Shown here piece by piece: positions 14,779-53,662 of a DNA stretch of 64,000 nucleotides. The stretch lies in assembly GCA_034387635.1 (NCBI GenBank), contig JAOANU010000004.1, positions 1,302,001-1,366,000 on the forward strand, written 5' to 3'. A program made the position numbers and the translations under genes. This DNA is from Rhodosporidiobolus odoratus (lineage: Eukaryota; Basidiomycota; Microbotryomycetes; Sporidiobolales; Sporidiobolaceae). Below the pieces are notes generated by a model, which was not told the DNA's origin, made no database searches, and saw only the letters and a list, made by a program, of their open reading frames with translations. Numbering within the stretch: position 1 is the stretch's first letter; every line of letters starts with the position of its first letter.

Positions 14779-15460
14779 ATGCCCCCCCACGTACCTCGCC
14801 CGATCTCGTACGAGAACTTCACCCTTTTCCTCTATAGTCTTGGCGAGGTCTTTCCGCTCAACAGCACGCAACACTCTGCGGTGTTGAGCTGGGTCAACAA
14901 GATCGTCGATGCCATCCCTCAGCACTACTGGGACGCGCTGGTTCTGGCCAATGCTCACGGAGAAACGGGTCAACAGGGTCTGACGGTCAAGCTTCAGAAG
15001 GCGGTCGACAATTACAAGGCCGCGCCAGTACGCTACCCGCTGGTGAGCATTGCGTTTTCTTGCCCCTTTTTTGTAAAAGAGAACAGAGAGGGCTGCGAGC
15101 TGATATGCATGACGGCCCTTTTATCCAGCCAGGAGGCGCCAACGTGCAAGCCTTTCTAGTAAGCCCATTGTCCTTCTCTCTCCTTTTTAATCTCATCTCA
15201 AGTTTCAAGCTCACCCTTTTCGCTCTTTTCAGGCCAACTACCCGTTGAAGGACGACTCTAGCAGCGAGGGCGAATCATCCATGCACGTAAGTTTCCGTCT
15301 TCCTGCTCTCAAATCCATCTCCTCAGAGTGTGCTTCCTTCTAAATAACTGGATACTCTGAACAGGCACTCGCTCACCTCAGCAGCCCGGATCCGTTCCAC
15401 CCCGGCGCCCGATCCGCTTCGACAGCCTACCAGAACTACGGACGACTAGCCTTCAGATAG
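14779..15460 (+). CDS. Short-family copy 1, small intron-rich protein of unknown function
   Basis: I do not recognise this family. The ATG at 14779 opens an 87-codon first exon with PRPISYENFTLFLYSL and the family core AIPQHYWDALVLANAHGETG-QQGL, ending at a GTGAGC donor. Three further exons follow: a short one (FIQPGGANVQAF), ANYPLKDDSSSEGESSMH, and a last exon starting ALAHLSSPDPFHPGARS and stopping at 15460. About 150 aa, no signal peptide or membrane span. The same exon order and the HYW..L..N..G-TGQ core recur at 16080 and 26143. The last-exon peptide is also shared with the long-family genes at 40.8-44.4 and 52.3 kb. All four exons are open with canonical splice sites, so this copy looks intact. 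Confidence 0.65.
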
Positions 15461-16079
15461 TACCCGAGTTGTCAGCGGTAGCCCCCCGGGATGTCAGCGA
15501 TTTTCTCACGAGCAGGGTTGTGTGAAGGCAAAGTCGCGAGGTAAGTGCACAGCAGGGACCCATGGAATGCAGGTTGTATAATGTCAGTAGGCGAGTTCTC
15601 TTGATCTGATGCAGTGCAGTGCGTCGCGGGGTGCAGATCGCTCGCAGAGCTCGCATCTGAACATGGAGATCGGCTGATTGCCCTCCCACTGATTTCGACC
15701 TGTTCCACCCTGTTCGTCGCTATCTCTACCTTCTACACTAACTGCTTTACTTCGTCAACTCACGCAGCTAGCGAGCTTGCCGGGACCTACTCCGCACTCC
15801 GCCTCTACCGCTGATGACACAACGCTGCTTGTCAGCCTCTTGCAGACGCCTTCGTCGCCTTTGTGTCGCCTTTTCGCCTGAAATAGCCTTATTGTCAGCA
15901 TGATCACCTCACCCAAACCTCAGATCTTCTGAAGAATCAAAGCAGGCTATGTGTATGACGCCGCCGTCTTGGCAATTGCTTTGGTCGTCTTCACAGCCTT
16001 CAACCGCATCCTCTTGCGTTTTTTCCTCCTGGCCTCTTTCCTCTCTGGTGTACCCACACCTCCAACTTATAGCCTCGGC
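15461..16079. other. Intergenic between short-family copies 1 and 2
   Basis: No supported exon. A short word at 15613-15632 (CAGTGCAGTGCGTCGCGGGG) recurs nearly unchanged near 17330, beyond copy 2. This may be a trace of the local duplication that made the two copies. Confidence 0.35.
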
Positions 16080-16722
16080 ATGTCACCGCATTTGCACTCA
16101 TTGCCTAGACCCACCTCGATCCTCTATCAAATGCCTACCCGCTCCCTCGCTGCCATCCGCGATTACCTGCGATCTCGTTCAAGCGGTAACCACGCCTCCG
16201 CAGATGCCTGGTCCGCCAAAGCTAGTGCGGCCATTCTCAAACATTACCAGAATGCCTTGACGGTACTACACGAGGGAAAACGGGGCAAATGGCACTACTG
16301 GAAGAGGTGCAGCGGGTTGACGGAGAGGTGCGAAGCAGGCAGGTGACTGATTTGGTAAGTTAGTCTCCGTAGTATAGCTGTACTTTACCCTCACACCCCA
16401 TCTCTCCCTCTCTCAATGTGTGGTATAGCCAGAAGGCTGGCAACTACAGGCTATCGCAGTGAGTGATGTTTTCGCAGACCGTCCCGCATCCTTCTCCAGA
16501 TCTTCATACCTTGTGTTCAACAGTTAAAGTACAAAGTACAATCTAACGCCGGAACAAGACACGAACGAGCACGTACGTTCACCATCCACCTGCTGACCCC
16601 AAGCGCCTTTCACCAACCCTAATCTTCTTGGTCCGTGACTCACTGAGACTCAGTCTCTTCCGCATCTTGCTGCGCTGGATCCTTTCCACCCTTGGGCCCG
16701 CTCAACCACACTACGCTATTGT
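16080..16722 (+). pseudogene. Short-family copy 2, probably frameshifted
   Basis: Homologue of the gene at 14779. The ATG at 16080 gives MSPHLHSLPRPTSILYQ, and the exon runs to AAILKHYQNALTV, matching the HYW.AL core of copies 1 and 3. The next conserved stretch, GKTGQMALLEEVQRV (about 16275-16320), is in a different frame, so one base has been lost or gained near 16270. Downstream exons are recognisable: RQVTDL with a GTAAGT donor, PEGWQLQAIA, LKYKVQSNAGTRHERA and a final exon SLPHLAALDPFHPWARS (from about 16651). The frame change cannot be removed with a plausible intron, so I treat the copy as damaged; a sequencing error would give the same picture. Confidence 0.55.
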
Positions 16723-18715
16723 ACTCTTGCAAGCCAAGTCTTCCAGTAAAGATCTGCGCCATGGACACCTCACAACGCGCGGCCTCCTTCCAAAGTTTCC
16801 GCCCATGGGTGTAAGGCCTCGCGCAATATACCGTGAGTCATCTCTACTTGCAAGTCCCCTGCAATGCGAAGTAGACAAGTGGACAAGTATTAAGTGACGC
16901 TCGCTGGAAGGCGAGAAGACACAGCAAGTCAAGTCGAGATGTCGAGACGCGATAGCGAGTATTTCCCCCGTTCCTTCCTGATCGCTTCCCTTCTGCAGTT
17001 CACCTTAGCCTGTTCAGCCAATTGAGTGTTCTCATCGACTAGTGCGCGTGCCGCTTCAGAGGACCTGGAAACGAGCGCACCGAGACGAGCCACTCAAGGG
17101 GCGTGAATGGCATAAATTCTTGTCCTATCAGGAGAGGGAATATGGGCCGCGAAGCTTACTCAGGTGATCTGCATGTTGAACACCCGTGCAGGATCAGTCG
17201 ACTCCCTATGGCTCAAGGCCATCTCGACGTTGCGGGCAGCGGTGCGGCCGAGGGAGAACCTCCTCAACTCTCCCTACAGTCTCGCTGTCGCTCCTCCGTC
17301 CCCTTTAGCCGACCTACATCCACACTCAGTGCAGTGTGTCGCGGGAGAGCTCGTCGCTCCTCCCAGAGGACGGTACGTACGGCCCGGTCGCGCGGCAACG
17401 GAAGAGAGCCGCTGGCAGTGGGGCTTGACTTATGCTGTTCCTGCCACTCTGTCGAGCCTGACTGATCAGGACAAAAGGGTGAGAGTTGTGTCAAGCTTTA
17501 ATTTCGCACTATGGTATAGTATTTCCTTGTTCAGCTGAAGCAGCTGCTTACTCACCGTACACCGCCTTTGCATACTGTAGCCCCTCTCGGACGCTTTCGG
17601 CGTAAGAGGTCTCCGATCACTTTTTTCTCCTCGGCCTTCTCCCTGAGCCAGCTTCTGGCGACCCGGGGGTTGATCCCCACCCGGCTGTACATTTCAGTAA
17701 AGTGCGCTGATCGCTAAGCTACACTTGTTCGTTACGAAACTAGAAGAGCTATGAAGACAATGTCCGTTATATATTGTTATTGTTGTTTTGTAAGTGTTAC
17801 AACTACCCTGTCAGCGAGGGAGGTGGGCGGGTTGTCGAAAAGGGATTCCTTGAAGCCGAAGGCTCGCAACGACTTGAACGCGACGTCGTCAGCTCCTTCT
17901 GCTTCACCTGAATAGCCGAGTGGGGAGGCTCACCTTAAAGGCGAGGAGGAAGTGACCTTTGCTAGAGCTTGAAAGTGGGCGAAGCCCGGGTAAGGCGACG
18001 CCTGGGGGACAAGTCGTACGCAAAGGTCAGCGTCCAGGCAGTAGTCGCTGTACTAGGGCTCCCAAGCGACGTACCTGTAACCCTTGCTCTACTTGTGTCC
18101 GTCTTCCTGCCGAGAGAGCCAAAGGCTCGAAGAAACTGAGATGTCAACGAAAGACGCGATGTCAGTTTCTTAGTTTCGGCCAGAGCGCTCGAAGCGCTGC
18201 AGGAAGCGGGGAAGTAGTAGCCCGGGATTGGAGGCTCCTTGCCGACCTCAGCAGGCGAGGCCTAACTGAGGAGGGCGCCTTCGGATCCAAAAACCCCCCA
18301 CTCGAATTCCGAAGGAGGGAGAGGAAGGGGAATTTGAAACGCACCTGACTAGAGTGGCGAAGCTGGGCCAGGCGACCTCTTGCTAACTCGAGCTAGTCAA
18401 ACTCGAGGTCGTACACAAGAGAGAAGAAGGAAACACAGAGAGGGAAGGACTGGTGGGACCAAGTCTCCCTAGCAACACTGTTTCTGCTTCCGTAGGCATC
18501 GAGGACGCAGTGAGGGCGCGGAGCGAATCGAACCACGAAGACATCTAGAGACTCTGTGATTTTTCCCTAGCGCTTTCGAGCGAGTGTGAGTGAGCGAGAA
18601 AGACGCGTCTTCGAGAGAGATTGTTTTCTTCTTTGTCATTTTCGCTCGCTTCTTTCGTCGCTCGCTTGGCGTTTGGAGATTGTTTTCAGCGCTCTCTTCT
18701 ACCCTATCTGCAGCT

Positions 18716-18716
<1 letters not shown>
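16723..18716. other. 2-kb region between short-family copy 2 and the retrotransposon
   Basis: No confident gene. The left end of the DIRS-like element probably lies somewhere in this stretch, but I could not find a repeat shared with the DNA after 25939. Between 17940 and 18410 a motif resembling GGCGAAGC...GGCGACG occurs twice (about 17978 and 18356), which may belong to the element's leader. A tRNA-like stretch near 17660-17730 is discussed under rejected items. Confidence 0.35.

Positions 18717-18760
<44 letters not shown>
18717..18760 (+). repeat. 44-bp uninterrupted poly-C tract
   Basis: Forty-four consecutive C residues end 11 bp before the gag ATG at 18772. It is the longest homopolymer in the window. 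It may be in the 5' leader of the retrotransposon; its exact length in the genome is uncertain because such tracts are hard to sequence. Confidence 0.9.
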
Positions 18761-18762
<2 letters not shown>

Positions 18763-18771
18763 TCCCCCGCC

Positions 18772-21439: not shown

Positions 21440-21447
21440 CGACGATA
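21440..21447 (+). repeat. 8-bp target-site duplication, right copy (CGACGATA)
   Basis: Pairs with 20681-20688. Confidence 0.9.
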
Positions 21448-21522
21448 GGAGGGTCCTGGCGACACAAAGTGCAATGTGGTTCGAAGTCGAGATAACGGAG
21501 GAGCGTTTGACCACTCGATTGA

Positions 21523-23348
21523 CCCGCTTTGGTTCTCTTTCCTTTCTTCCTATATTATCGAAGAATTCCGTCTCGCTTCGAATACTATATGTCTCTGTAC
21601 CACCTCGACCAGGTCGAACGCTTCAAAAAGATACCCTCTTTAATCCGTAACGGCTCTACCTTGGGCATTGTCCCGCTTCCTTCGCCCTCGACTTCCTTCC
21701 TTCCTCCGAATTCCGTTCCGCTTGAAGACGAACACTTTGTTGATGAGAAGCTAGAGAAGTGGAGGGAGAGAGGGAAGATGGTGGGTCCGTTCAGGGTAGA
21801 GGAGGTCGTCGAAGTCGCAGGTCCCATCCAATCTTCTCCAATCAAACTCGTCGATAAAGCGCCGCTTCCTTCACAACCCGTTCGCAAACGCATCGTCGAG
21901 AATTTCTCTTATCCCTATGATCCAGTCCCCTCCTCTCTGCCCGCGGCCAACGACAATCTCAACCCCGACGACTTTGAATGTACCTGGACCCGTCTCTACC
22001 AGCTGAAGAAATTTTATCGCCCGGTTAAGCATTACCCTGAAGCGCGCGTTCTCGGTCTCGACTTCGAGGACTGCTTCGAACACATCTCGCTTCACGAGTC
22101 GGCAAAACCGAGGTTGGTCTTTTACTGGAAGGACAGGGTGGATATTCGGCAGGTGGCGCCGTTTGGGTTAAGGACGACGCCAGGGGAGTCGGGGAATCTC
22201 GTCGATTTTAGGGTGGAGTGTGTGGAGCGTCGCTTTGAAGGGAGGGTTAGGATTATGTCGCAGGTGGATGATCTTTCGGTCGTGGTTTACGATCCTTCGA
22301 TTTCCGACGACGAGATTATCGCTTTCATCGAATCGTTCGGTTGGCACCTCAACAAGGAGAAGATTCAGAGCGGTACTCGTCGACCTACGCATAACGGGAT
22401 CGAATGGGATATGGATGAGCAGACGATGACGTTGCCGAAAGGGAAGTTGGAGAAGTTTGTGGGTAAGCTCGAGGCTATGGAACGCAAAGGGAAGATGGAG
22501 GTGGTGTCGCTTAAGGAGATGGAGTCGTTGACTGGCTCACTTCAATACGTCGCTGCGAGTACGGTTTCGTCTTATCCTTTTTCCGTTTCTCTCGTCGTAA
22601 CTAACTATTCCCTCAAGTCCTACCGCATCTCCGCCCCCGTCTTCGAGTGCTTTACCGTTTCCGCGCTTCCTTCCCCGATGACCGATCCCGACGGCACCTC
22701 CTAGACAAGGAACTCCGTTGTATCCGATGGTGGATCTCTTTTCTTCGCAGCAACGACGTCTCAGCCTCCTTTGCCGAGCTTCCATGTCTATCTCCTCTTT
22801 ATCTCACATGCGACGCTTCGAATTCTGGGATCGGTCTTTTAATTCGCAACGCCGCCCCTCCCTCACCTTCTCTCATCTCTTCTTTCTCCCTTCCCGAAGA
22901 ATGGCGATTGACTCTCGAGGCGTATATTGGTAACCCAGAGGCGTGGGCAGTGGAGGCTACGGTTGAAGCGACGATCAGGCTGGGGGCAAAGGATAGTGTG
23001 GTGATTGTGAAGTCGGACAACGATAACGTGGTGAAGAGTTGGAGCAAGGGTTGGTCAAGGAATGCGCTTCTTAACCTTTCTATCTTCCGTCTGCTTCGTC
23101 TCACCGCCCTTGCGAACATCGCGCTTGTCATTGAATACATCCCTACCGACCTCAATCCCTCGGACCCGGTCTCTCGTTTCCTTTCCGTTCCCGATTCCCT
23201 CGACCTTTCTTCCCTCATCTTCCTATTTACACCACCGGGGACAGTTGGCGGCTCAGATCCATATGCATCCAGCACGCCGTATATTGATGAGCTTGAGAGC
23301 GCGGTCAAGGATGTCGGTGACCCGGATATATCGATGGACGGGCCTTGA
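21523..23348 (+). CDS. Reverse transcriptase-RNase H of the DIRS element
   Basis: The RT part starts near 21550 (FEYYMSLYHLDQVERFKKIP, RNGSTLGI) and holds RVLGLDFEDCFEHI (first catalytic Asp region), QVAPFGLRTTPGESGNLVDF and MSQVDDLSVVVYD, where VDD takes the place of the usual YXDD. A 59-bp intron (22559-22617, GTACGG...CTAAC...AAG) joins GSLQYVAA to ILPHLRPRLRVLYRFRASFP, turning two apparently separate frames into one. RNase H follows with LYLTCDASNSGIGLL (D), EAWAVEATVEATI (E), KSDNDNVVKSW (D) and PTDLNPSDPVSRF (D). The frame ends at 23348. No start codon is assigned: the frame opens after a stop at 21520, and upstream exons may lie before the nested MITE. Confidence 0.8.
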
Positions 23349-23522
23349 AGAGAAGGTGTCGAGAAGAAGATTCGCTTGCAAGTATATAGTTTCCCTCTCA
23401 TACAATGTTACTGTTTCATTCTACGAGTGTGCGGCCTGCAGGGCAATAAGGAATTTGGGTACCCGACGAAATGTTCCTGTATAGGTCGTTTCGCTTTTAC
23501 GTTTCTCTTTCCCATCCTTATC

Positions 23523-25939
23523 ATGCCTCCAAAAATCAATGTGAGCGAGCAAGCCTGGGTTGTTGTCAGAGCTGGACTAACCTGCGTGCGTAGCTCCATC
23601 CCCCGGTCCTCTCGAAACCCACTTCATCCGAATCGACTCGTCAGCAAACCTCATCTCGCCCGAAACTCTCACAACGTACACCGGCTCAAAAGACTTTCCA
23701 GACGGCCGATAGTACTACAAACACGCCTCCCACGACGACACAGCACGTAGCGTTGCGATCGAACACAACTGTAGGCGACGATAAGGACAAGGAGAAGGAG
23801 GTTGACGTACTGGCAGTAGGAGCTACCCCGGGGGAAACAGGTTTGGATAAGGGTGAGGAGCGTTTCGAGAAGAGAAGAGTTTCGACGGTGAGGAGATTCA
23901 CAGGTTTCGGTAATTCTTCGTTGGCGGCGTCGACCTCGACCGGCGAAGCGGAGTCGCCAACGCAACTTCAGGTGAAGGATGGGGGCACTAGACACACCAA
24001 GGAGTACGAGGAAACACCGGCTATGACCCTTGAGGCGGAGCCGGAGGCGAGCTTGGCGTTGTGGTTGGGGACGGAGGAAAGAGAGGAGAGGGATTTGAGC
24101 GGCGATTTTGCAAACTTCTCGCTAGACTCGGAAGCTAAGGAGGCAGATATCCAAGTAGGAGGAGTGGCTAAGATGTGGGAACCTAAGTTGGGCGACGAGG
24201 TGCTCCGTCATGACGAATCTTTCCTTTTCCCCGAAACTTCTGCCGACGACTTCTTTTACGACTCCTTGAACTCCCAAATTAACACAGCCTCCCACACTGC
24301 GGGTTGGCAGCCGCCGCTTCACTCTGAACCCGTACACCAAGCTGCCCCGACTGTTCCCTCCATCGTCGCCGACATCTCTACTTCCTCAAGTTCTCAATCG
24401 TTCCCTACCTATTCCGCGTCGACCGTCAGCGATAACCTCACGCGGCTTTCCTCCAAATTCGCCGCCTCAGTCCCTCGCAATGTTCGCCTTCTCGTTCTCG
24501 CACCGGTCGGTTACGAAGAACACTTTCAGCTTACCCTCGAAGCACGTTGGAAGCTAGCCGATGTCCTCTACAACTCGATCCAGCTAAAACACCTCGAATC
24601 ATGTGCCTTCCTAATCGAACGTTGGCTGAAATTCTGCGAAGTCGAACGCGCCCCTCCCAACAGACGTTTTCCTGCCGAACCCCGTCTCGTCTATGTCTTC
24701 CTAGCCTTCCTCGGCCGTTCTTACTCCATCTCCTACGTCCGCCAACATCTCACCGCACTCAAACTTTGGCACAACATTCACCTCATCCCGTTTCCCCTTG
24801 ATAAAGCGATTTTGAGGCAGGTCATGGCGGGAGTGAAGGGATTGGGACCGACCCCGAAGGAGGATAGGAGGGGCATTACGATGGACGACATTTACTTCGT
24901 TATCAGCCAGCTTAAGAAGGAGAAGGAGGAGAAGCCGGAGGAGGAAGGTATGATGCTGGCGGTTTCGGCGGCGATGACGTTCCTCTTCTTCGCCATGGGG
25001 AGGTGCAAGGATGCCACGGTCGAACGTCAAACGGCGTACAAGGCACCATCGGCAAACTCGACGGCAGTGGTCAAGACTTTCGATCCCAAATACGATCTTC
25101 ATGGCGGATCGTTCGAATTCTTCAAGGAGACAAAGAAGATGCCCCCTCTCGTCCGTATCTCTCTTCCGTTCGACAAGATCAAAAAGAAGGCAGGAGAGAA
25201 GCTCTACCTTACCGAACAACGCGCTTTCTCCGTCTCCGTTGACCCCATCAGCACGCTCAAGGAACACCTTCTCTTCAACCGTCCGTCTCCGACTGACCCA
25301 GCTTTCTCGTTCATCGGTCGTGACGGCAAGACTCGCGTATGGCTCACCAATTCCTTCCTCGTCAAGGAGATCAACGAGATTCTCCAGAAGGCAGGGAGGT
25401 CGAAGATCCATGGCCATTCATTCCGAACCGGCGGCAGCAACTTTTACAAGCTCGCGAAGGTTCACCCGGAGATCATCAAGTCCGTAGCACGTTGGGCTTC
25501 CTCTTCCTCGTACCAGCGCTATCAACGCGACAAAGAAACTACCGCCCGCATGTTCTTGTCGAATCTCAAACCGATCGAAGAGGAGGAGAAGACATTGGAA
25601 GAGGAGGATATTTTCGCAGAAGGCGAGCCGGAGGATGCTTGGTTCGTCTTTCATTCCGTAATCGGTGCCCGCACGAGGCGAGGTGAGTCTCTGCAGCGCA
25701 GAGTCGTCCTGGGTGTTTCGGCGGTGCCTCGCGTCGTCGCTGTGCGAGTCTCGTTGGGAGGCCGCGAGCCTTCGCCGTTCTCCCCAGGCCGGCCGAGTAG
25801 CGAGACAAGAGACGCCTCTCTTTCCCCCAACCCTTCGTTGACCCGTCCTCGTCTTCCGAACAGATCGATCCAGTCTAACGAGCGAGATCGTCGACGCGCC
25901 CGCTTCGCTTCTCCGTTGCAGCGGCTGCGCGAGATCTAG
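23523..25939 (+). CDS. Tyrosine recombinase of the DIRS element
   Basis: ATG 23523 opens a six-codon exon (MPPKIN); a 53-bp intron (23541-23593) joins it to LHPPVLSKPTSS and the long frame to 25939, about 785 aa. The N-terminal half is low-complexity and acidic. A SAM-like core-binding region (about 24540-24850) is followed by the catalytic domain: box I arginine in FLFFAMGRCKDATVER, HGHSFRTGGSNFYKL (H-x-x-R) and VARWASSSSYQRY with the candidate nucleophilic tyrosine. This is the integrase of DIRS elements and resembles Crypton recombinases. The C-terminal 100 residues (after about 25640) are Arg/Pro/Ser-rich and may be read-through into terminal repeat sequence. All catalytic residues seem present. 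Confidence 0.8.
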
Positions 25940-26142: not shown

Positions 26143-26808
26143 ATGCGGCATGGACTTCCTCTCAGCCCGCCACCCACACCGATCCATTACCATACCTTCC
26201 TTCAGCTCCTCGCTTCCTTTCGCGACATTTACTTTGCCCAGGATCTCCTCGAAGGTCGCGACTGGCACGACGATTGCACGACAGCTATTCCTGAACATTA
26301 TTGGGATGGTTTGAGGTTTCGCAATCGACGAGGCGACACGGGTCAGATGGCGCTCAAGGGAACAATGCAGGAGGCCGTGTGGAAGTTGCGTCAGGGCCAT
26401 GAGGTTGACTTGGTAATTTGACACGCTCTTGCCCTACTTGTCTAACTGGGTGGTGTCGTGCTGAACTTTGTCATCCGTCTTCGGGCTGACAGTCACAAGG
26501 TTCGGATCTACGGGAGATAGCGGTGAGTGTTTTCTTTTCTTCCGTGGTTTACGGCCCAATTTATGCTGAGTTGTATGCCTTCGATAACCTCAGCTAAAAT
26601 ACCCACTGGAAGGGGACCTCAGCAACGAGGAAGAGCACGAGCGCGTACATCCGCGATCCTCCTCTCACTGTTTCACTCCATGAGATAACTCTTCCTTCAT
26701 TTCGCTACTCCGCAGTCTCTGTCCCATACCACCCGTCTTGATCCCTTTCGTCCCGGCGCCCGCTCAACTCCCGTCAGTCTACGACCTGCGTACGGGACCA
26801 ACTTTTAG
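26143..26808 (+). CDS. Short-family copy 3, small intron-rich protein of unknown function
   Basis: The ATG at 26143 gives MRHGLPLSPPPTPIHYHTFL; the exon contains AIPEHYWDGLRFRNRRGDTG-QMAL and ends at EVDL with a GTAATT donor. Small exons then give SQGSDLREIA (about 26500-26520) and LKYPLEGDLSNEEEHER (about 26595-26645). The last exon, SLSHTTRLDPFRPGARST, stops at 26808. About 150 aa. It is the closest match to copies 1 and 2 in exon order and core motif. It lies just after the DIRS recombinase gene, so the retrotransposon sits between copies 2 and 3. All frames are open. Confidence 0.65.
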
Positions 26809-27142: not shown

Positions 27143-27150
27143 ACCTGGTC
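27143..27150 (+). repeat. 8-bp target-site duplication, left copy (ACCTGGTC)
   Basis: Identical to 27612-27619. Confidence 0.9.
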
Positions 27151-27611
27151 TAGAGACCTCACCGGAAATTTCCGGAGCGAGAATTTCCGGGTTTCGGGGG
27201 TTTCGGAGGGGTCGACCGGTTTCCGCGTATTTTCCGGGTTCCGGACCCGAAAATCCCGAAAATTCCGGGTTCCGGCTCCGAAATAGACAGTACGGAAGTC
27301 GCTGTGCGTAGCTCCGGCTCGTAGGTAACAAGTGCAATGGTCTAGTCTCATTCCACTGCGCTACCGCACCAGCTATACCGGTCTTGTGTAACATGTCTCT
27401 CTATACAGTCTTTTGCAGGTAGGTAACGCAGCAGGCCCGCCATTTCTACTCCGAAACTTGCGAAACCCGAAATTTCCGGGTCATATACCACCTCAGCCAC
27501 CTCAATCCGGTTTCCGGTTACTTTTCGGATTCCGGAGCCGGAACTTCCGAAAACCACGGAAAGTTCCGGACATCCTAGAAATTCCGCCGGAAAATTCCGG
27601 TGAGGTCTCTA
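27151..27611. mobile_element. hAT-like MITE (461 bp) with CCGGAA-rich interior
   Basis: Termini are TAGAGACCTCACCGGAA and its inverse complement, flanked by the perfect 8-bp duplication ACCTGGTC. There is no coding capacity. The interior holds many copies of TTCCGG/CCGGAA and GGAATTTCCGG-like words in both orientations, the kind of subterminal clusters that hAT transposases bind. It shares only the TAGAGA tip with the 751-bp element at 20689, so the two belong to different MITE families that could use related transposases. Confidence 0.9.
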
Positions 27612-36243: not shown

Positions 36244-37545
36244 ATGCTCGTTCGCTCGCTACTGATGATACTCGCAGCGGCTGCAGGGACAGTCACCTCC
36301 GCTGCAGCAACCAAGATCTTGGTACCGCTGTACGTCCATTCTTTCCCTTCCCTTCCTCCTGTGTTGACTGATCTCTCATTGCCTTGCAGCTACGAATGGT
36401 CTGAAGACTGCTGGCCAGAACTCCAAGCTGCTGCGTAAGCTAGTCACCGTGCTGTACCCAACCGCTTACACTGACTCTATACCTACTTTCTCCCGCAGGG
36501 CCAACAACCCGACCGCCTCTTACCTGGCCATCATCAACCCCAACAGCGGTCCTATCCTCGACACCTCCGATCCCTCTCTCTACTGCATCCCCGTCCTCCG
36601 TCAACGGATCCCAAACCTCACTCTAATAGGCTACGTCCGAACTGGTTATTGTTCCCGTCCGGCTTCGGAAATAGAGGCCGATGTCGCGATTTATAAGAGT
36701 TGGAGTGGGTTCAATGTTAGTGCTGGGGGCGTGAAGGGCACGTCGAAGGTGGATGGGATCTTCTTTGATGAGACGCCGAATTTTGTGGATTCTTTGAACG
36801 GGCTGACGACGTATTCGGGGTATGCCAAGGCGGCCAGGAGTGCCTTTGGAGCCAAGACTAGCACGGTGCGTCCTCTTACACTTCCATCTCCCTCTCCATT
36901 TCGCTCCAAACGAGGCCGTCTCTGCCTTGTACTCGTTCGCTTTTCTCCTCTCTTCCCGATTCATCGATATCTGACCCGCCTTGCTTGAACAGGTCGTTTT
37001 CAACCCTGGCACGTACGCCAATACTCGCCTGTACACCTTCGCAGACCTCGTCGTAGCCTACGAAGACTCGTATCAGAATTACGCGTTCGTCCCTTTTTCC
37101 TCTTCATACCTTGCCTCCCTTCTGTGTCCCTCTCTTGCCCATCTCGCTTGTACCCAAATCTCGCACCCTATACTCACTCTGAGTCTCTGTGCAGCGCCGC
37201 CAAACCCCCTCCCGCTAATGTTGCATCAAAATCGGCGATCATGATTCATACCTTCCCCTCTGCTTCCCGCGTCCTCCAGATTTCCCTTCGCCGACTTCTT
37301 GGGACTTATGGAGCGGTCTATATCACGACGAACGATATCGCGCAGGAAGACGGTACGCCCTTGTTCTCCAGACTCTTGCTTACGCTTTCAGTGTACCTTT
37401 GGCTTGCTAAACTCGATACTTATGCTTCTTGGCTACGGGTGTAGTCTACAAGCGATTTGGCGACAACTGGAACAATTTCGTCAAATACGTTGCGGCACTG
37501 CAAAAGTCGTCGACAACGAAGGCTCGGCGGGCGCTGAGGTTGTAG
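36244..37545 (+). CDS. Spherulin-4 family secreted protein, copy 1
   Basis: Spherulation-specific family 4 proteins are secreted or wall-associated, with a TIM-barrel related to GH114 glycosidases; their activity in fungi is mostly unknown. The ATG at 36244 gives a clear signal peptide (MLVRSLLMILAAAAGTVTSA). Exons join ATKILVPLYEWSEDCWPEL to NNPTASYLAIINPNSGPI, NLTLIGYVRTGYCSRPASEI, VDGIFFDETPNFVDSLNGL (the DGIFFDE motif holds the acidic residues expected in the active site), VVFNPGTYANTRLYTFADLV and KSAIMIHTFPSASRVLQIS. The last exon, VYKRFGDNWNNFVKYVAAL, stops at 37545. About 280 aa mature length, usual for the family. It is a tandem paralogue of the next gene and lacks that gene's Ser/Thr-rich tail. 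Confidence 0.85.
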
Positions 37546-38195
37546 CTGGTGAAGGGTTATTCGAAAGGACGGCGGTAGCCTGGAACCATCGTACGCATCA
37601 CTTTCCGTGACTCAGCTCTGGCTGTACATAGTGGCCCAGCACCGCTGAGCGTCGAGATGTTCCGCAGCCTCTTCTTCGGATCTTGCTCGACCGTTTCTTT
37701 TCTCCCTCTTTCCGCTTCTTCGCGCCGAGTGACTAGCCGTTGGCGCCATGTACCCCTAGATTTTGTCCGCACCTCACGTGAGCGCTAGGCTGCCCTTGCG
37801 GCCTGATCACTCCTTACGTTGAGCCCCTCTCGCACACGCCTTCCACCCACCGCCCAAATCATCCTCTCTTCTTCTCCGCCGAACGGCCGGGCCTCCTCCT
37901 CGGTTCACGCTCCCTCTGCGCGTCACGTTGCTGTCGCCTTTTCTTCCGAACCTTCCACCATGCTCTCTCCTGTTCTTCTCGGCAGCCGTTGAAGTACGAT
38001 CGGACGGTTACCGTCCTCGGATCTTCCGCCTTGGGTGGTCCTCAGCGCACCGCTCTCTCGCTTGACCTGCCAGCTGCTCGTGCTTGCTCTTCTCTTCTTC
38101 ACCGACCTTTCCCTCGAGAGCTGGGCTCTTTCTCGTCCTTTCCTCTCACCTACCTCCAACTCTCGTTCACTCTTTTCTTCCTCTTCGCTTGCAAC
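37546..38195. other. Intergenic between the Spherulin-4 tandem copies
   Basis: No exon supported. The last 150 bp are CT-rich, typical of a fungal promoter near the transcription start. Confidence 0.45.
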
Positions 38196-39610
38196 ATGCT
38201 TCGCGTCTCTATCCTTTCCGCATTGGCCCTGGCGGCTGCTGCGGTTGATGCTACGAGGGTCCTCATCCCCCTCTACTCCTGGGACGAAGACTGCTGGCCC
38301 GAACTCCAGACAGCGGCGTGCGTTAATTTTCCTTCTTCTCACCTACCCTTTTCTCCCCGCCGCCTGTCTGACCCTATTTCGTCGCCGCGCAGCGCCAAGA
38401 ACCCGTCCACCTCGTTCCTTGCCATCATCAACCCCTCCTCGGGTCCCATCTCGGACGTCTCCGACCCCTCCCTCTACTGCGTCCCAGTCCTTCGCAAAGC
38501 TATTCCTAACCTCACCCTCCTAGGTTACGTTCGAACCGGGTACGGTGACCGATCCGCCTCGACTGTTAAGGCTGAGATTGGGCAGTACGAGGGGTGGAAA
38601 GACTTGAAGGTCAAGGCTGGAGGGGTCGAAGGTAGTGCGGAATTGGATGGGATTTTCTTCGACGAGAGTATGAGCTTCAAGGAGGATCAGACTGGGTTGG
38701 ACAGTTACAAGGGGTTTTCGAAGGCGGCGAGGGAGGCGTTTGGGGAGCAGGGCACCGTCAGTTTTTCTTTTCCTTTCTTTTTCTCGCCGCATGTTTTCAT
38801 TTCTTAGCCTTTCTCTAGGTTGCTTGAGGACTGACGGATCGATTCGCTCCCTCTCAGATCATGTACAACCCTGGTACTCCGTCTGGACAAGCTCTGTACG
38901 ACATTGCCGATGTAGTCGTCGCATACGAGCACTACTACACCCAGTTTGCGTCAGTCTCGTCCCTCTGCCCTTCTTCCCTCCTTGCCTCTCGGTCCCACTC
39001 CTTGACTCTGTACACACTGACCCGCCCTTTCTCTTACAGCGCTGCCGACCTGCCGACCGAAGACAAGATCCAAGCCCAATCCGCCATCATGCTCCATGAC
39101 TTCCCTACTTCTTCTTCGACCCTCTCGACTGTCCTCTCCGCCATTGTTCCCGCGTATGACAGCGTCTGGATCTCGGATGCCAAGATTGACAAGGAGGACA
39201 GTACGTTTGACTTCTTCCCTCTCTTTTTTCCCGGTGGCGTTCCGTATATCATGTCACTGACACACAAGTTGTATTCTTGAACAGTCTACCAAAATTGGGG
39301 TTCTAACTGGAACAGTCTTGTCGCCAACGTCGCTTCCGCCAACAGTAAGAGCAACAGCGGAGGCGGTGTCGCGTCTACCAGCCAAGCGACCAAGATCGTC
39401 CAGCCCTCTTCGACCTCGTCCACGACCGCCAAGAGCTCTTTGACTTCGTCTCGTGCTGGCTTGACAACCACTGCCTTTACCACCGCCGTCCGATCGACCA
39501 CCACCACCCGCTCCTCGACCACGGTCGCTTCCACCAAGTCTACTTCTTCGGCTGCTACTGCTTCAGCTAGTCGCCGTCCGTGGTGGAAGCACGGTCAGCA
39601 CCAGCACTGA
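38196..39610 (+). CDS. Spherulin-4 family secreted protein, copy 2, with Ser/Thr-rich tail
   Basis: The ATG at 38196 gives the signal peptide MLRVSILSALALAAAAVDA. The same exon plan as copy 1 gives TRVLIPLYSWDEDCWPELQ, NPSTSFLAIINPSSGPISD, NLTLLGYVRTGYGDRSAST, LDGIFFDESMSFKEDQTGL, ALYDIADVVVAYEHYYTQF and SAIMLHDFPTSSSTLSTVL. The last exon has YQNWGSNWNSLVANVAS, then about 90 residues very rich in Ser/Thr, ending RRPWWKHGQHQH at 39610. The tail is likely O-mannosylated and could act as a wall stalk; it lacks the hydrophobic end of a GPI signal. All exons are open with canonical splice sites. Confidence 0.87.
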
Positions 39611-40823: not shown

Positions 40824-42257
40824 ATGCCCACCAGTACGGCAACTGCTGCTCTATATGCCGCTGCAGGGGAGTCGCTGTTACAAGCGATTGCAGGGAAAGA
40901 TCGAGTTACATTCCGAACAATCTGCCTCGCGGGTGAGTCCTCATCAAGCGACTATGGCACAAGCTCCGCCAATGCATACTTTACTCCGCAGGTATTGGCG
41001 GAGCTGTAGGGTGGCTGAACGAGCTGACCCTCGGCAGTGTCAAGGCGGAGATGGGACCCCTTGTGCACGGGATTGAATGGCCGACAGATAAAGTCATATG
41101 TCGACTCTTGCTTCACAGCCTGGCCTTGTCGCGCTGATTTCCCTTGTACAATACAGACTCGAAGTCTACGCCGTGGCATCAAGACTCATTGAGGCCGACA
41201 ATGCTCGCTATGAAATGCGGGTCATCGCTAACAAGCTCACCAACGAGGTGATCTTCCCCGTTACCTCCCCTTCTTGTGGTAAACTGAAGTTTTGTGCTCG
41301 GTGCATAGGCTCGTGATGGCGTGCCGCCACCACACCCTGGTCTTCACGTCTTCCGCTATTCACCTGATCCATTCGAACCCGAGTAAGTGCCGCTACTAGC
41401 ACTTGTCCGCTCATCCCACGCAACACGACTATTGGAGCCCCCCCAAGCCTTACATGTCCCATGGCTGCCGGTGCCCAAGCGGCTGCTGACCTTGATATGG
41501 GCCCCGGGCGACTGCAGGCACAACACGGTCAACTTCCTTTTCGACGCCCAAGCTACGCATCCACCTGGTATCTACAAGATTGACCAACTGTACTTTCCAA
41601 AGCGGCCTGATCAGTCTAATCCTGCCCGACACCGCCTGCGATTGCTTGGCGGAGGACACCTCGTCTACAATGCATTTAGTGTCATCAATCATGTGCTCGA
41701 CCCCCGACATGCTGAGTCCTATAATGACAGCAAGGTGAAGCTGTACAGCGAGGTTTTCGTCATCCTCATACTCTACTTGCTCATCGAGCAGGGCCACAGC
41801 GAGCGGGTACAACTCGGCGGTGCGCAATGGCGCGAGCTGGCGCAGCACTTCAACTCGTCTGAGTACGCGGTACTTCAGTGATTCATTCGACAGGAGGAAG
41901 CCGTTTCAAGCTTGGCAAGGGAAGCTGCCAGATACATGTGCGAACAAGGACCAGAAGAGTTGGACCAGATAGTTCTGGAGTTGGAGATCCCGGCAGCATT
42001 CCAATACATCCGCCACAATTTCTATGTAGGCCTCTCCTTGTATTTGACTGTGTCAAATCCATAATGAGCTTACATTCTCTGAGTTCTGCAGGTTGACTCT
42101 GATGTAAGCCCTCTTGCCCTGGTCCTCTCACTGCTTTACTTTTTAACTGTTTTCCTGAGCACAGGGCAAGTATCGGCAGACAGCAATACAACTCCACTCG
42201 CTGTCCCATTCCTCTCCATTCTTCCCTCGTGCTCGTGCCCTACAATCATATGTGTAA
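40824..42257 (+). pseudogene. Long-family copy A, unknown function, interrupted by one in-frame TGA
   Basis: Unrecognised family shared with genes at 42912 and 52292. ATG 40824 gives MPTSTATAALYAAAGESLLQ ... RTICLAG with a GTGAGT donor. Further exons give VGWLNELTLGSVKAEMGPLV...HGIEWP, LEVYAVASRLIEADNARYEM, VPPPHPGLHVFRYSPDPFEP, and a long exon with VNFLFDAQATHPPGIYKI, INHVLDPRHAESYNDS and VFVILILYLLIEQGHSERV. That exon reads SSEYAVLQ, then TGA (41879-41881), then FIRQEEAVSSLAREAARYM in the same frame, exactly where copy C continues through QEF. A 12-nt microexon (VDSD) and the last exon LHSLSHSSPFFPRARALQS follow, stopping at 42257. Apart from the TGA the gene is open. Readthrough or a tiny intron cannot be excluded. 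Confidence 0.6.
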
Positions 42258-42911: not shown

Positions 42912-44369
42912 ATGAGTCGACCAAACCGCATTCCCACCATCAACGCTACGACCTTATGCGACGTCGGCATACAAGTCGCTGTCTCGTGTGAGCGTATTGA
43001 CGACATCAGCCGTCACTTCGAGGCGTTTGTCGTGGGAGGTATGTGTTTCTCGCGTGTTGTGGTCCGCACTTCCGGGAATGTGCGACTTCCTCTGACTGAC
43101 GAGGCTTTCGCAGGACTCGCGGCTACGGCAAAGTGGATTCAGCTCTGTGATCCGTCAGGCAGGAGCAGAGCGGCTCGGTTAATCTTGGCCGTCCACTGGC
43201 CTTGCAACTTGACAGCTCCGAGTCCTATGAGTGCTTCCCTTTCTTGCACGCAATTGAGCCCTACATGCTGACTGTTCTTGCGGTCTAGCACCACCTCGAG
43301 GTATCTGCTGTGGCTTCGGCACACAAAGACCCCAGTGGACTGCAAGAAACCATGAGGGAGATTCTGCTAGAGGTCTCGAAGAAAAGCTTCGAGGCCGTCA
43401 ACGTGCGTATCTCACACTGTGACATCCGCGAGTTAATCATCTTAACCGTGTTTATCTCCTGGTCAGCGCCTCCCGCCCTATCCGATTTTGCTGGACCACC
43501 AGGAATACTGGTTCCGCAAATCAAGGTAAGTTGTTTCCCGCTTCCTCTCTTCGGTAGATCTGAATCAGAGGAACGGCTGACTTCCCAGCGTTCAGTACAC
43601 AGGATGTTTGCCTACGCGTCTATAGCACGACGTGCCATGCTCCCCAGGACAAGACTATCTCCAAGTTGTGGCACCCCTCGACTGTTTCAACCGGCAACTG
43701 GCAGCATCGTCTGCCCAACCGAATTCGGCTAATCGGCATCCCCATCCTACTCTTCAAGTCCATTCACTTGGCGTGTCAACAGCTGGACTCCTCCAGAAAG
43801 GAGGAGCACGAGGAAGCCTTTAAAAGCATTTTCATCGCCCTTTTGATCTTTCTTTTGATCAGGGATTCGCGGGAGGGCGACACAACCAGGGACCTCAGCT
43901 TGGACTACCATAGCTGGAGGAGCTTCGTGATGGAGCTGGACAACGACCTCTATGGACCGACACGATCGCAGGTTCAGTACCACAAGCTGGATAAGGAGTT
44001 GGCTAAGACTGCCGCACGTCACATGGCCAGCTGGCACGGTGTGACGGACGTGTTGAAAGAAGAAGAGCTGCGGTTCGAGCTTGGTAAAGCATTTGAATTC
44101 TACGAAGACATCTTTGCGGTATGTGCCACCTTTTTCTTTTTCACTCTCTGCGTGACGCAAGCCATTCACTGACTCTGCTCCCCTCTTTGCAGCACTGTGG
44201 TATCACGGTAGGGGACATTACGCTCAATGCAATGAGACGACACACTGATAGAATCTACAAATATGCGCAGGGAAATTTGACGGTATCCGCCGTACAGCTC
44301 CGTTCACTAAGCCATTCCCCATACTCCCCCGTCGCTCGCTCGAACGTCTCCGCTTCGCGCGCTTTCTGA
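42912..44369 (+). CDS. Long-family copy B, unknown function
   Basis: Tandem paralogue of copy A on the same strand. ATG 42912 (MSRPNRIPTINATTLCDVG) opens exon 1 up to EAFVVGG with a GTATGT donor. Exon 2 has KWIQLCDPSGRSRAARLI...LAVHWP, matching W-(5)-DP...HWP in copy C. Exon 3 is HHLEVSAVASAHKDPSGLQE, exon 4 APPALSDFAGPPGILVPQIK, and exon 5 RVYSTTCHAPQDKTISKLWH ... IGIPILLFKSIHLACQQL ... EEAFKSIFIALLIFLLI. Then comes a 15-nt microexon (HCGIT) and a last exon LRSLSHSPYSPVARSNVSAS, stop 44369. About 320 aa. The long exon holds one hydrophobic stretch (FIALLIFLLI) that could be buried or membrane-inserted. All exons are open. Sequence identity with A and C is low, but exon phases and landmarks agree, so duplication is old. 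Confidence 0.65.
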
Positions 44370-48439: not shown

Positions 48440-48620
48440 GAGCGCCACCGTTTACATCACTGCGGGTCACAGACCACGTCCGGCAGACACTGCTCCTCGC
48501 AGAAAGGCTGTCTTTCCTCCCCGTTGACCTTCTCAACTCGCCTGGAAGTCGGTTCTGCGCCGGCATCCCTGCCTTGTCTGCGCCGTGCGCAGCCCGTACC
48601 AGCAACAGCCTAGACTACCG

Positions 48621-51600
48621 TACAGTGAGGGACCGCTATTCCGGACAAGTCGTGTCATGGCCATTTTCTGCTTCGTCAAGCGCTGGTCTTGCAAAAGCGA
48701 AGAGACCAAGCTGACGGCAATGAAGTCTACTTGCTCTGTGCGAAGTTCGACAGCGAGAGGAGCAAGAGAGAGGGAGAAAAGACAGTCAGAAAAAATGGCG
48801 TCTTCGGACGCGTCGGTCAGCGTGTCCGGACAGCGTTATCTCGCTTCACAGGCCACGCAGCAGAACGGACGGGTATCAGGTGCAATACGCATCTCATCAA
48901 AGTGGCCTAGGGCCCGTCAAAACCTTCCAGGTGCGCAAGATGCGAGGCAGAGGAAGACCAACCTGGCGCTGTCATGTCCGCAGGCGCGGAATCCCTTGCG
49001 CCATCTTTCTGCTGCCCATACCCGCTGTACATGTTCTCTATACCTATGGCCATATGGTAGGGACGCTTGATGGAGGATCCCGGCGTGTTGAGGCCGAAGT
49101 TGGGGGCTTAGTGAGCTTGACCGGTGGAGAGGCTCTGAGGGGTGTAAGTCGAGTACTGAGCGGCGGAAGTGGGTGCAGCGGTCGACAACGGATCGTGGTA
49201 GAAGGCGAACGAGCTTGCGGCGGGAAAATGGGCGCGGGACGAGGAGGGAGTCGCCGGAGAAGCATGGACCTGGAGAAAATCATTGTCAGTAGTGTGCTTA
49301 GTTGCTCAAACGGCGCACTAAGCTGTAGTAGAGCAGCGAAGATGCGTACCTGCGTCTGGGCGGCGGCTACAAGACTGGAAGCGGAGGGATAGGGTGAGAA
49401 AGTCGGTGCGGAAGGCTGGAAACAAGGGGAAAAGGAGAATAATACCCCTGCGCCAGGAGAGACGGGATCTACGTACCGTTGTATGAGGAGCCATGTAGGA
49501 GGCCGGATACGGCGCGGCGAAGGACAAGGATGACGTAAGCGTCGACAGCTGTAAGAAGAATGATCAGCAGGGAGCACGAAATTGAAACAGAGAGTGTGGC
49601 GTACCGGCGGGGTGCGAAGAACAGCGCCAGCTAGACCAAACGCGGTTGTAGGCGTCTGCTGGAGCGCACCAGAGGCGCCGCGAGATGACGAAGCAGGCGT
49701 AGAAGCTAGCTTTGCCTGGGCCTCCTTGGCCTCTTTAGCCAATTTGTTGGCTGCCCGGGTCTGCTTGCGCTTCTCCTTTGCTTCTAGCTCCGCCTTCTTC
49801 TTCTGCTCGGCCTCTGCGAGTGCGGCGCGGTGCGCCTCCCCTGTAACGAGAGCAGAAGATGGGTTTGGTCCAGCAGCCTTAAGGAGCTTTTGCCCGATCA
49901 TCGGCCTCCCTGGCTTGCAACTGGCGGGAGACTTGTTCGACGCCAATACCTAGTCCAGCTTCACGCGCTCCGGTAGCCGTGAGCTCATCGCCCATGTCAC
50001 GGGCGAGGGAGACGAGGTCAGAGATGTAGGAGAAGAGGACGGCCTTGAGGAAGTGTTTAGTGCGCTCTGCGGTTGGTACATCATTTATGAGGGTCGCGAG
50101 GCGCTTAAGATGGGTGGGAATGGGGGTTTTGGGATGCTCAGACACATATCTTTGGAGGGAGGCGAAGGAGAGGGTCGGGGGAAGAGGCGGGGGTTGCGGC
50201 GCGGCAGCGGAATTGTCTTGCGGCTGAGCACGGTTGTCCTGCCACAGAACAGTGTCAAGAAGCGTATGAGAAGAAGAGAAGCAGCGCACCTCGACCTCGG
50301 GAGCCGGAGCGTTGTCTGCCGGAATGTGCTCATCCTGCCGAACAGCGCAAAAAGTCAGTACAGCAATGAGTACGGACTCAACAGCATGCGCACTTCAGCA
50401 TCACCACCTTCTTTGACCTCGTCGTCCTCACTTGCTTTCGCAAAACGATCGGCGCAACGCTTGACGACGTCGCCAAACTCTGATTCTTCCAACTCCTCCG
50501 CTGTACATGCCCTTAACACCTCTCCCAAGACTGTACCAGTAGCTGAATGAGCGAAGAAGGTGTCCACCGGGCGCGTGAGAGTCATCGAATCTCCACGCTC
50601 CAAGTCTTCCTTTGAAATTACGGTTGGGTCGAAAGGAGAGATCCCAGTTTTGGCGAATCCCGAGATAATTGTTGCCGGAATGTGGGATTGCCGATAGGCT
50701 TGTGTGAAGACGGTCATAAACGCGCCGGGCTTGAGGTTGCCAAACAAGGCTACGGGAGTGGGGAGGTCAGCGCGCTGCCCCACAATGAAAGGAGGGAATA
50801 CGCACAGTGCTTGTCGGCCCAGTCCTTGACGGCAGAGCGCCAGTACGTCTTGTGTGGACCGAAGACACCGACATCGAGAGGCTGCAAGCAATGAGTGGTG
50901 TGCGCAGGGAGACAGAGAAGTTCGACGCCGTGGTCGACCGCCGCTTGGATTGTGTCAGGGGATAGATGGGAGCGGTGGCCGTCGAATATCAGCAAGACCT
51001 TCTCCCCATTGGGATATTTAGCTCTGACGTGCTTGACGAAGACGTCCTTGAACCATCGGAGGAAGATGCGCGAGTCTGTCCACCCGTTCCCCTGTACCTC
51101 GATGAGTGCGCCGAAGGAATTTTCGTTGATGATCTTTTTCGCGATAGTGCGGAACATCTTGCGCGGGTAGATGATGAAGGGAGGAACTGTAGTCCCGTCA
51201 TCGACAACGCAGGTCCCGGCCGATGTATTCTCGCGGCCGTTTGCTGCCAAAGAGGAAAAGTCAATTTTTTCCGACTCCCATATTAGGCGAAACTAGCTCA
51301 CGCACCCTTTATCTCCTCGATCGTGACCATATTTGTCGGTACGATGCGAGCGCCGGCACCGGATTGAGCGTAGTGCCCACTCTCGTCCATATTGAAGATG
51401 CGCCCTTTTTCTCCCGGTTGGATACCGCACGCCTTGATGGCGTTCTCGAGCTGCGGAAGCTCGGACAGTTAATCATAGACCCAAGCCAGCTTGGAGACTG
51501 AGTGACTTACCACGGTCAACCACTTCTCTGCCATAGTTGAGTTTTCACAAGAAGCCCTCAATGCGTCCAGCTGGGTTGCCCTCTTAATGCTTGTAACCTG

Positions 51601-52155
51601 GATCTTCCGCTTGATGAAGCGCTTCACCCAGTTTTTGCCGAGCGCTTCATGGTCGCCCTGCGCTGCTAGCATGTCCTGGACAAAACGACGGACCTAAACG
51701 AAGCTGCACGGGTGTCCCATTCTTGCCAATTTCTCAACTCGCAAAGCACAGTCTCTTGCTCCAGCGCCAGGCGTGAATGACTGCGATGAGACGTCATGCT
51801 GGCCGGTCCGCCGCGTTTGAGGGCGTCAAAAAGGGTGGAAGGTGCAATCTTGTTTTCTTTGGCGATAGCGCGGATGGAGGGGGGAGGAGTGTCGTCGGCG
51901 AGACAGACCTTCTGGCCGCGCGTGTACTGGTCAATGGCCGTGATAATGCGTGTGGCAAAGTCGAGAAAGCTTGTGGGAGCCATAGCAAGTGTGTAGAGGG
52001 AGAGAACAACAAACAAACAAACCTGAGAAGGTTGCCGCAACGCGTCCGTCTTGGGTTTTTTCCACTTTTCCTGCTCTCCCTGAACTCCGCAGATTGCCGC
52101 ATTTTGGGCGGTGTCCGGAGAAGCGACCTGTCCGGGCGGGTGGTCCCCTACTGTA
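48621..52155 (-). mobile_element. pogo/Fot1-type DNA transposon with TIRs and TA duplication
   Basis: The inverted termini are CAGTGAGGGACCGCTATTCC at 48623 and, on the other strand, CAGTAGGGGACCACCCGCCC at 52153. They agree at 22 of the first 30 positions, including a shared CCGGACARGTCG block, and each is flanked by TA, the target duplicated by Tc1/mariner-pogo elements. The 3,531-bp interior carries one transposase gene on the minus strand. The right end is only 137 bp upstream of the start of long-family copy C, so the insertion is in that gene's promoter region. Confidence 0.88.
49108..51983 (-). pseudogene. pogo/Fot1-type DDE transposase, damaged near the N-terminus
   Basis: Catalyses cut-and-paste transposition. 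ATG 51983 (MAPTSFLDFATRIITAIDQY) begins the HTH region (SIRAIAKENKIAPSTLFDAL); the CENP-B-like second HTH has NWVKRFIKRKIQVTSIKRA. The DDE_1 domain holds all three acids: IFNMDESG (about 51.4 kb), VLLIFDGHRSHLSPD (about 51.0 kb) and HTTHCLQPLDVGVFGPHKTYW (about 50.9 kb). The C-terminal part (PATIISGFAKTGISPFDP, then a Lys/Ala-rich coiled coil at about 49.8 kb) runs over several introns to TAA at 49108. Around 51.70-51.74 kb the family block LARMGHP and VRRFVQDMLAAQ are in a different frame from the preceding LEQETVLCE and are separated by a TAG, so one frameshift and one stop have accumulated. It is unlikely to make full-length protein. Confidence 0.8.
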
Positions 52156-52291
52156 AAGCCCTGTCCGCTTTGCCCGTGACGTGAGGCTGTGTAGACCGTC
52201 CGCGGACCAAGAAGGCCTGGAGCAAGCAAAGGATCACCCTGATAGCCTGGCTGCTCTCCCCTGCTCCTGCCACATAGCTCAGTACAAGCGT

Positions 52292-53662
52292 ATGAGTGAC
52301 CTTACGTTCACTGCGGTAGGTAGCCTATCGCTAGGGCGCCTCATCGCTACGAGATTGCAGGAGAAGGCCAATGGAACCGTGGCTTATGTCGCACTTACGG
52401 GTATGTGACACTCTACGTCCTCTTGAAGCACAGTTGACCCCTCGAAAGTCCACCAGATCTTACTGGTCTAGCAGAATGGGTCGAAACTCTGGATCCAAAT
52501 CGCTCAACAAAGGCTTGGGAATTGGTCGCAGGATTTCACTGGCCGGTCGAGGTCGGCCGGTAAGCATCTATTACCTCCCATAGCTAGTTGTGCGGCCATC
52601 GACCACTGCTCGAATTCGCAGGTACAAGCTCGACGTCATCTTCCGTACCTCAATCAGACCGGAAGCAGCAGAGCTCATAACAGCCTCCGCAGCTAACTCG
52701 GTCACCGCTGAAGTGCGTGTGTCCATTTGGCCATATCCTACTGCTCCTCATGCCCGGAATACCGCGTCAGAGTGCGCGAGCTGTACACGCGCAAGTTCCA
52801 GCGACGATCTCCTTCTTCTACAAACAAGGGTGAGTGGTTGTTTACTTGATTCTTCTGTCTTTGCTACCGCCATAGTACTACCTAACGTATGCATATGCAA
52901 CCTATGTCCACCCCTCCTTCCTCAGGTCAGGAACGGGACGAGTCGACTTCTTTCCGAGCACCTTCGCAGGAAGCACGCTCGTGAATAACCTCTACTACAT
53001 GGCCAATCTCGGAATCCCGCATCACCGACTCGTGAGCGGCAGTAAACTTCTGTATCAGGCGGTCCTCTACATCAGCAGTCCCAATGCCACCAGGGTCGAT
53101 AAACATTACGGCGTGTTCATGCTGTTGACACTCGGCCTGTTGATTCACGAGGTGGAAGCACTCGAGTCGGGATGGCGTCAGCTGTTGCTGGACCATGAAC
53201 ACTGGGGCCGCTTCGTCATGCAGACCAACAAGACTGAGTATAAGGCGGTTCAGGAGTTTGTTCAGTATGGGGGCCTCAATCCAGCCCTGGCGGAGGAGAC
53301 AGCTCGGTACATGGAAGACCAGCAGCCGGCACTCATTTGCAGCCGCCAGGGAATAGCCAACGACATGATGACCGCGTTTCGATTCGCTGAAGAGCAATTT
53401 AAGGTGAGTTTGCACATCCTACTCCCGTAGGCAGATATTACCAGACCCTCATTCCACTTCACTTCTGCTTATCCACAGATTGATCATCGAACAGTATGCC
53501 GGTCACCTTTGTATGCTGGCTATCCTGACTTGACTTTCTGACTACCGCTTCTTAACCTTTTCTGTGCAGGGTCAATACGACGCGCCCGCCCGCGCCATGA
53601 GATCGTTGGCCCACTCTTCTCCCTTCTATCCCCGGGCTTGTACATCTCAAATTCAGCTCTAG
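52292..53662 (+). CDS. Long-family copy C, unknown function, intact
   Basis: Best-preserved member of the unrecognised long family. Splice phases are consistent throughout: exon 1 52292-52400 (MSDLTFTAVGSLSLGRLIAT), exon 2 52475-52559 (EWVETLDPNRSTKAWELV, FHWPVEVG), exon 3 52622-52712 (YKLDVIFRTSIRPEAAELIT), exon 4 ending near 52830 (VPATISFFYKQ), exon 5 about 52926-53403 (GTGRVDFFPSTFAGSTLVNN, NKTEYKAVQEFVQY, LAEETARYMEDQQP), a 15-nt microexon IDHRT, and exon 7 GQYDAPARAMRSLAHSSPFY...PRACTSQIQL with stop 53662. About 310 aa, acidic-helical, no signal peptide. No catalytic motif is visible. A pogo transposon ends 137 bp upstream, which may alter its expression. Confidence 0.7.

Follow-up and report, generated by a model that had tools for sequence, protein, structure and literature searches.

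Among C-terminal sorting signals, peroxisomal targeting signal 1 (PTS1) is a C-terminal SKL-type tripeptide, endoplasmic reticulum (ER) retention depends on a C-terminal HDEL/KDEL-type tetrapeptide, and CaaX prenylation, including that of fungal pheromones, on a cysteine four residues from the end. Short linear docking motifs and lineage-restricted (for lineage-specific genes, see PMC7660931), locally duplicated families that evolve by birth and death are the other described systems closest to the locus analyzed here, a 64,000-nucleotide window of contig JAOANU010000004.1 (C4). An initial annotation of this window had noticed six "otherwise different" genes that share a C-terminal exon peptide, here called the tag. 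The six peptides are present where they were noted, all on the forward strand and in last exons, but the genes that carry them are not six different bodies. Sequence searches join them as two paralogous families, A (A1, A2 and A3; ~147 amino acids (aa)) and B (B1, B2 and B3; ~310 aa).

Like a docking motif, the tag is a short segment, apparently kept at the protein level, near the end of fast-changing proteins; unlike the described examples, it fits no known motif class across all A and B copies, and the relation between its A and B forms is moderately supported. It shares with PTS1, HDEL and CaaX signals a place near the C terminus of different bodies, but it ends 6–15 residues before that terminus. 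The cluster resembles birth-and-death families in that no relatives were found outside the genus, that divergence is fast (B main exons share ~25% identity), and that some copies adjoin each other and some are broken; it differs in placing two families in one cluster, possibly with a common C-terminal motif. We tentatively explain the locus as a cluster whose proteins carry a linear docking motif near the C terminus, possibly derived from a common ancestor gene; the copies of both families would have arisen by duplication in place along a single stretch of one contig, with several lost to frame disruption. The evidence for this joint explanation is suggestive rather than proof, and we hold it at somewhat less than an even chance.

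Two families carry a C-terminal tag

Exon 1 of A1 retrieves A3 (expect value (E) 9e-8; 35% identity between the two genes), while B3 retrieves B2 (E 4e-5) and B1 (E 5e-4), together with two further copies on the same contig, B4 and B5, at 1475.1 and 1490.7 kb. A search with B5 returns B4, B6, B2 and B3, with no match on any other contig at E up to 10, and no A or B copy was found by our searches on another contig of the 24.8-Mb genome. B4, B5 and B6 lie ~108–126 kb outside the window, and the three A and six B copies all fall within ~175 kb, with A1–A2, B1–B2 and B5–B6 as adjoining pairs; these counts are lower bounds, as the searches score best candidates only. A2 is the weakest A member. Its tag matches that of A1 at E 0.007–0.07, and from its body a single piece aligns with A3, at no better than E 0.94; its placement in A, otherwise made by eye, may be regarded as weakly supported.

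The tag follows the consensus [SA]-L-x-[HK]-x(1,5)-P-[FY]-x-P-x-[AD]-R, which six of the nine copies fit in full; B3 has C for the last R, B4 has V for the first P, and B6 also departs. Counted after the quoted peptides, 14, 14, 13, 6, 8 and 7 residues precede the stop in A1–A3 and B1–B3, rather than the 5–31 first reported. A terminal exon following a phase-0 intron is found in the GT-AG splice models of A1, A3 and B3, and was read by eye from the frames in A2, B1 and B2. The tag exon starts right at the motif in family A and opens 11 residues ahead of it in B3.

We compared the six frames of 224 kb with 15 simulated order-2 Markov sequences. The core pattern P-[FY]-x-P-x-[AD]-R occurs seven times, and six of these occurrences fall in terminal exons of A or B (simulated mean 1.2, maximum 5); the long form with the SL..H lead occurs six times, always in A or B, and never in the simulations; both patterns had been widened after A1 and B5 had been seen. 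The narrower pattern of the initial annotation is also above chance, with four matches, all expected, and none in the simulations, and it misses A1 and B3. Because the paralogs are not independent, this evidence should be read as one conserved motif per family, two in all, and not as six independent occurrences.

Table 1. Positions of the window, genes and tags, with annotated R. odoratus counterparts
Feature	Position	Strand	Description
Window	C4:1302001-1366000		contig JAOANU010000004.1; genome 24.8 Mb, 45 contigs
A1	14779..15460	+	147 aa; exons 14779-15042, 15129-15158, 15233-15286, 15365-15460; GT-AG splice model
A1 tag	15365-15415	+	ALAHLSSPDPFHPGARS
A2	16080..16749 (start approximate)	+	adjoins A1; exon 1 frame apparently disrupted (frames by eye; tblastn pieces in different frames, weak)
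A2 tag	16654-16704	+	SLPHLAALDPFHPWARS
A3	26143..26808	+	147 aa; exons 26143-26412, 26493-26522, 26594-26644, 26716-26808; splice model; A1 paralog
A3 tag	26716-26766	+	SLSHTTRLDPFRPGARS
B1	40824..42257	+	in-frame TGA at 41879-41881 breaks main exon; terminal exon 42165-42257
B1 mini exon	42092-42103
B1 tag	42198-42236	+	SLSHSSPFFPRAR
B2	42912..44369	+	main exon 43596-44118 open; terminal exon 44271-44369
B2 mini exon	44193-44207
B2 tag	44304-44342	+	SLSHSPYSPVARS
B3	52292..53662	+	open 309-aa model, 7 exons; terminal exon 53570-53662
B3 mini exon	53479-53493		15 nt
B3 tag	53603-53638	+	SLAHSSPFYPRA
B4 tag			SLSKHSVYFPSDRR
B5 tag			SLRKHDPYFPSDRR
B6 tag			SLSKHAIYFPSDCC
P0003			JCM11641_002174; counterpart of A1
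P0001			JCM11641_002169; counterpart of B2; matches part of main exon
P0002			JCM11641_002165; counterpart of B3; same tag

Several copies depart from an intact gene model. In addition to the disruptions in Table 1, the reading of B6, which adjoins B5, is split between frames, and a satisfactory splice donor for intron 2 of B2 was not found by eye. The B genes appear to contain an internal mini exon of 12–15 nt, with a length divisible by three in each of the five copies that were read (by eye for B4 and B5).

Conservation of the tag and its annotated counterparts

Mean pairwise identity among five B copies, with B6 left out, is highest in the tag, at 0.56 (70% among B1–B3), compared with 0.28 in exons 1–2, 0.19 in exons 3–4, 0.25 in the main exon, 0.29 in the mini exon, 0.34 in the pre-tag segment and 0.15 in the post-tag segment. 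The tags of B1 and B3 are identical at 10 of 13 residues, with different codons at six of those. In family A, nine of the 17 tag residues are invariant, and synonymous codon variation at seven of these nine makes constraint at the protein level likely.

The only protein relatives found are three annotated proteins of the red yeast Rhodosporidiobolus odoratus (R. odoratus), P0001, P0002 and P0003, apparently from one contig. Their locus tags, 002165 (B3), 002169 (B2) and 002174 (A1), are each listed with a 58,262-base contig, and the series suggests that gene order is conserved. A1 and P0003 differ at 9 of 146 shared residues and agree at all 17 of the tag. B3 and P0002 differ at 8 of 92, agree at all 12 of the tag and differ at four of the seven residues after it; P0002 has R at the position where B3 leaves the consensus. 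B2 and P0001 differ at 7 of 94; two of these differences fall on the end residues of P0001, a fragment that covers part of B2 only and ends ahead of the tag. These relatives make R. odoratus, or a yeast close to it, the probable source of the window. In the R. odoratus annotation, the counterparts of A1 and B3 contain the same tag exons, although P0002 skips the 15-nt mini exon, and P0003 suggests an additional upstream exon of A1 with a start near 14319 (by eye). Of the common C-terminal signal first proposed, a conserved protein motif holds up: in A as in B it seems to be under protein-level constraint, and the counterparts of A1 and B3 carry it without change.

The cluster is most likely restricted to the genus, orphan, and shaped by birth and death. 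As a single query, A3 found no match in a large protein collection, whereas an alignment of A1 and A3 found the R. odoratus protein, so the lack of relatives elsewhere reflects, in part, the sensitivity of the search; for B, the queries were main exons only. Among the titles and abstract openings listed for R. odoratus, the Rhodosporidiobolus genome, Sporidiobolales or orphan genes, and conserved C-terminal motifs, none dealt with these genes; JCM11641 gave no paper, and the word "odoratus" is absent from the main text of PMC12093110.

A structural model of the A1 counterpart contains a helical exon-1 domain of moderate confidence (residues 34–111; block means of 59–81 in the predicted local distance difference test, pLDDT), and every residue after 111, tag included, has a pLDDT below 50.

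Relation between the A and B tags

When tag columns were shuffled, none of 1000 shuffles reached the observed score of A against B1–B3 (Gumbel p ~1e-5, strong), and one of 1000 reached that of A against all six B tags (p ~0.001, moderate). A comparison of full-length A and B profiles places the tag–tag pair at the top with a score of 23.1, which none of 300 column shuffles attains (maximum 20.9). Weighed together with the motif counts and with the contrary results given below, this is moderate support for a real relation between the A and B tags.

The same profile comparison bears on an alternative that we think somewhat unlikely, namely that A and B represent remote branches of a single gene family whose tag is the best-kept structural end, packed onto the body and serving no separate partner. 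A second match, co-linear with the first, lies near the N terminus around W-x-x-x-[LI], in the region that also ranks first when the B profile is built from B4 and B5. In both families, moreover, a short exon is mostly followed by one that begins x-[KNQ]-Y (A1, A3, B1, B3 and B5, though not B2 and B4, by eye). However, the N-terminal match by itself is at chance level (E 0.15, or 0.4 with B4 and B5), the A and B bodies are unlike in length and exon number, and the model of the A1 counterpart does not confidently pack the tail.

Several results weigh against a docking motif common to both families. The tags of B4–B6 alone score no better against A than many of their shuffles (256 of 1000; p ~0.24), and the profile of B4 and B5 only peaks at the N-terminal region, not the tag, at 12.9 (E 0.4), which is chance level, equal to the mean of shuffles made with the whole B set. 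Across the 224 kb, the A-tag profile places no B tag in the best 20 of 7,276 matches, and the B-tag profile ranks A1 12th and A2 14th of 7,506, with A3 outside the best 20. When the whole genome was queried with tag protein sequences, no A tag led to B and no B tag to A: A3 retrieved A3 only, B1 retrieved B1 and B3, and A1 retrieved A1 and A2. Such queries retrieve near copies only, so the tag may also occur on some third family elsewhere. Between A1 and P0003 the tag falls within a 47-residue unchanged stretch (20 before, 17 of the tag, 10 after) and so is not specially kept in this pair, and the low-confidence tail of the structural model may come from a thin alignment, not disorder.

The tags could instead be truly conserved inside A and inside B, with their likeness a coincidence noticed by comparing all gene ends in the window. 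We consider this rather unlikely. It agrees with the missing link between A and B4–B6 and with the failure of the A-tag profile to retrieve B tags, and the p value for all six B tags is uncorrected for how many gene ends were compared. It accords poorly with the full-length comparison, in which no shuffle reached the observed score and the best pair lies near the C terminus of both proteins, and with the absence of the long pattern from all 15 simulated 224-kb regions.

Exon sharing, also put forward in the initial annotation, is not supported. The position of the A and B tags, in each case in a terminal exon behind a phase-0 intron, would be compatible with copying of the tag exon between families by exon shuffling or gene conversion, but no direct repeat of at least 24 nt (14-nt seed) joins the A and B terminal exons, and the exon begins at the motif in A and 11 residues upstream of it in B3. 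We rejected this DNA-level route and regard it as highly improbable. The only repeat touching a tag is between the B1 tag and 33717-33745 (29 nt, 76%), a segment in neither family.

A putative docking site

In our preferred explanation, the tag would serve as a short linear docking site, set in a flexible tail, for a partner common to both families, and its A and B forms would go back to one ancestral 3′ gene end, not to recent exon copying. Such a docking motif would offer the simplest account of why the tag has outlasted the B body. The binding signal first proposed is reasonable on this account, although it belongs to two families rather than six bodies and the A–B resemblance is weakened by B4–B6. 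It is improbable, in our estimate, that two orphan families of unrelated origin are addressed or docked to one partner by the same C-terminal tag, a lineage-restricted arrangement for which we found no described counterpart.

A sorting or processing signal had also been suggested; endings of the PTS1, HDEL or CaaX kind are absent from all nine C termini, which end AFR, VFQ, TNF, SYV, RAF, IQL, SGV, GGM and SGI. We accordingly rejected peroxisomal PTS1 cargo (no SKL-type tripeptide), ER-retained proteins (no HDEL/KDEL-type tetrapeptide) and prenylated CaaX proteins (no cysteine at the fourth place from the end). By eye, no hydrophobic leader that would suggest the signal peptide of a secreted effector or other secreted protein is apparent at the start of A1, A3 or B3. 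SH3 domains bind class I ligands of the form [RKY]-x-x-P-x-x-P and class II ligands of the form P-x-x-P-x-[KR]. The class I pattern fits two of the nine tags (A3 and B5) and the class II pattern none, and a bare P-x-x-P is present in seven.

None of A1, A3, B3, P0003 and four B main exons passes the Pfam cut-off; A1 has a sub-threshold match to PGA_cap (E 0.038). No relative of solved structure was found by sequence for the B main exons, and no confident fold was obtained. Linkage to mating type is not supported, as the STE3 match lies on contig C17 and the one Homeobox_KN match on C20, with A and B on C4; this check covered the STE3 and Homeobox_KN families only, and separate contigs may share one chromosome.

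Should both families dock through the tag, it would offer a handle on the role of a young cluster, and a 13–17-residue peptide could be used directly as bait. The locus also provides a clean setting in which to ask about common ancestry of two orphan families for which a short motif is all that still aligns. If only the conservation within each family holds, this is an ordinary orphan multigene family.

Neighboring elements and genes

A DIRS-like element at 21529-25939 (+) ends ~200 bp ahead of A3. One of its open reading frames (ORFs) weakly matches a reverse transcriptase (Pfam E 0.035), and a 728-aa ORF weakly matches a tyrosine recombinase (Pfam E 0.13; PHROG integrase E 0.0055). A DDE_1 transposase ORF (E 6.9e-27) lies at 50753-51250 (-), ~1 kb before B3. 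Inverted repeats of 25 nt, resembling those of a miniature inverted-repeat transposable element (MITE), lie at 27151-27611, ~340 bp past A3; they are 96% complementary and 411 nt apart.

The proximity of A3 to the tyrosine-recombinase ORF and of B3 to the transposase ORF, together with the broken frames of several copies, could suggest that the A and B genes are mobile-element passengers or decayed ORFs rather than host genes. We give this very little credence: the copies are few, spliced and confined to one stretch of one contig, some adjoining, and the counterparts of A1, B2 and B3 lie close together in R. odoratus. A repeat search of 13500-57000 of the window found no terminal repeats flanking the copies.

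A gene at 54250-55160 (+) was considered as a further B N terminus and dropped, as by eye it better fits a protein like ATG10, an autophagy conjugating enzyme; the part tested has no Pfam match. Two adjoining genes at 36390-38807 (+) resemble spherulation-specific family 4: Pfam Spherulin4 matches the second, and a 47-nt repeat and inspection by eye liken the first to its neighbor.

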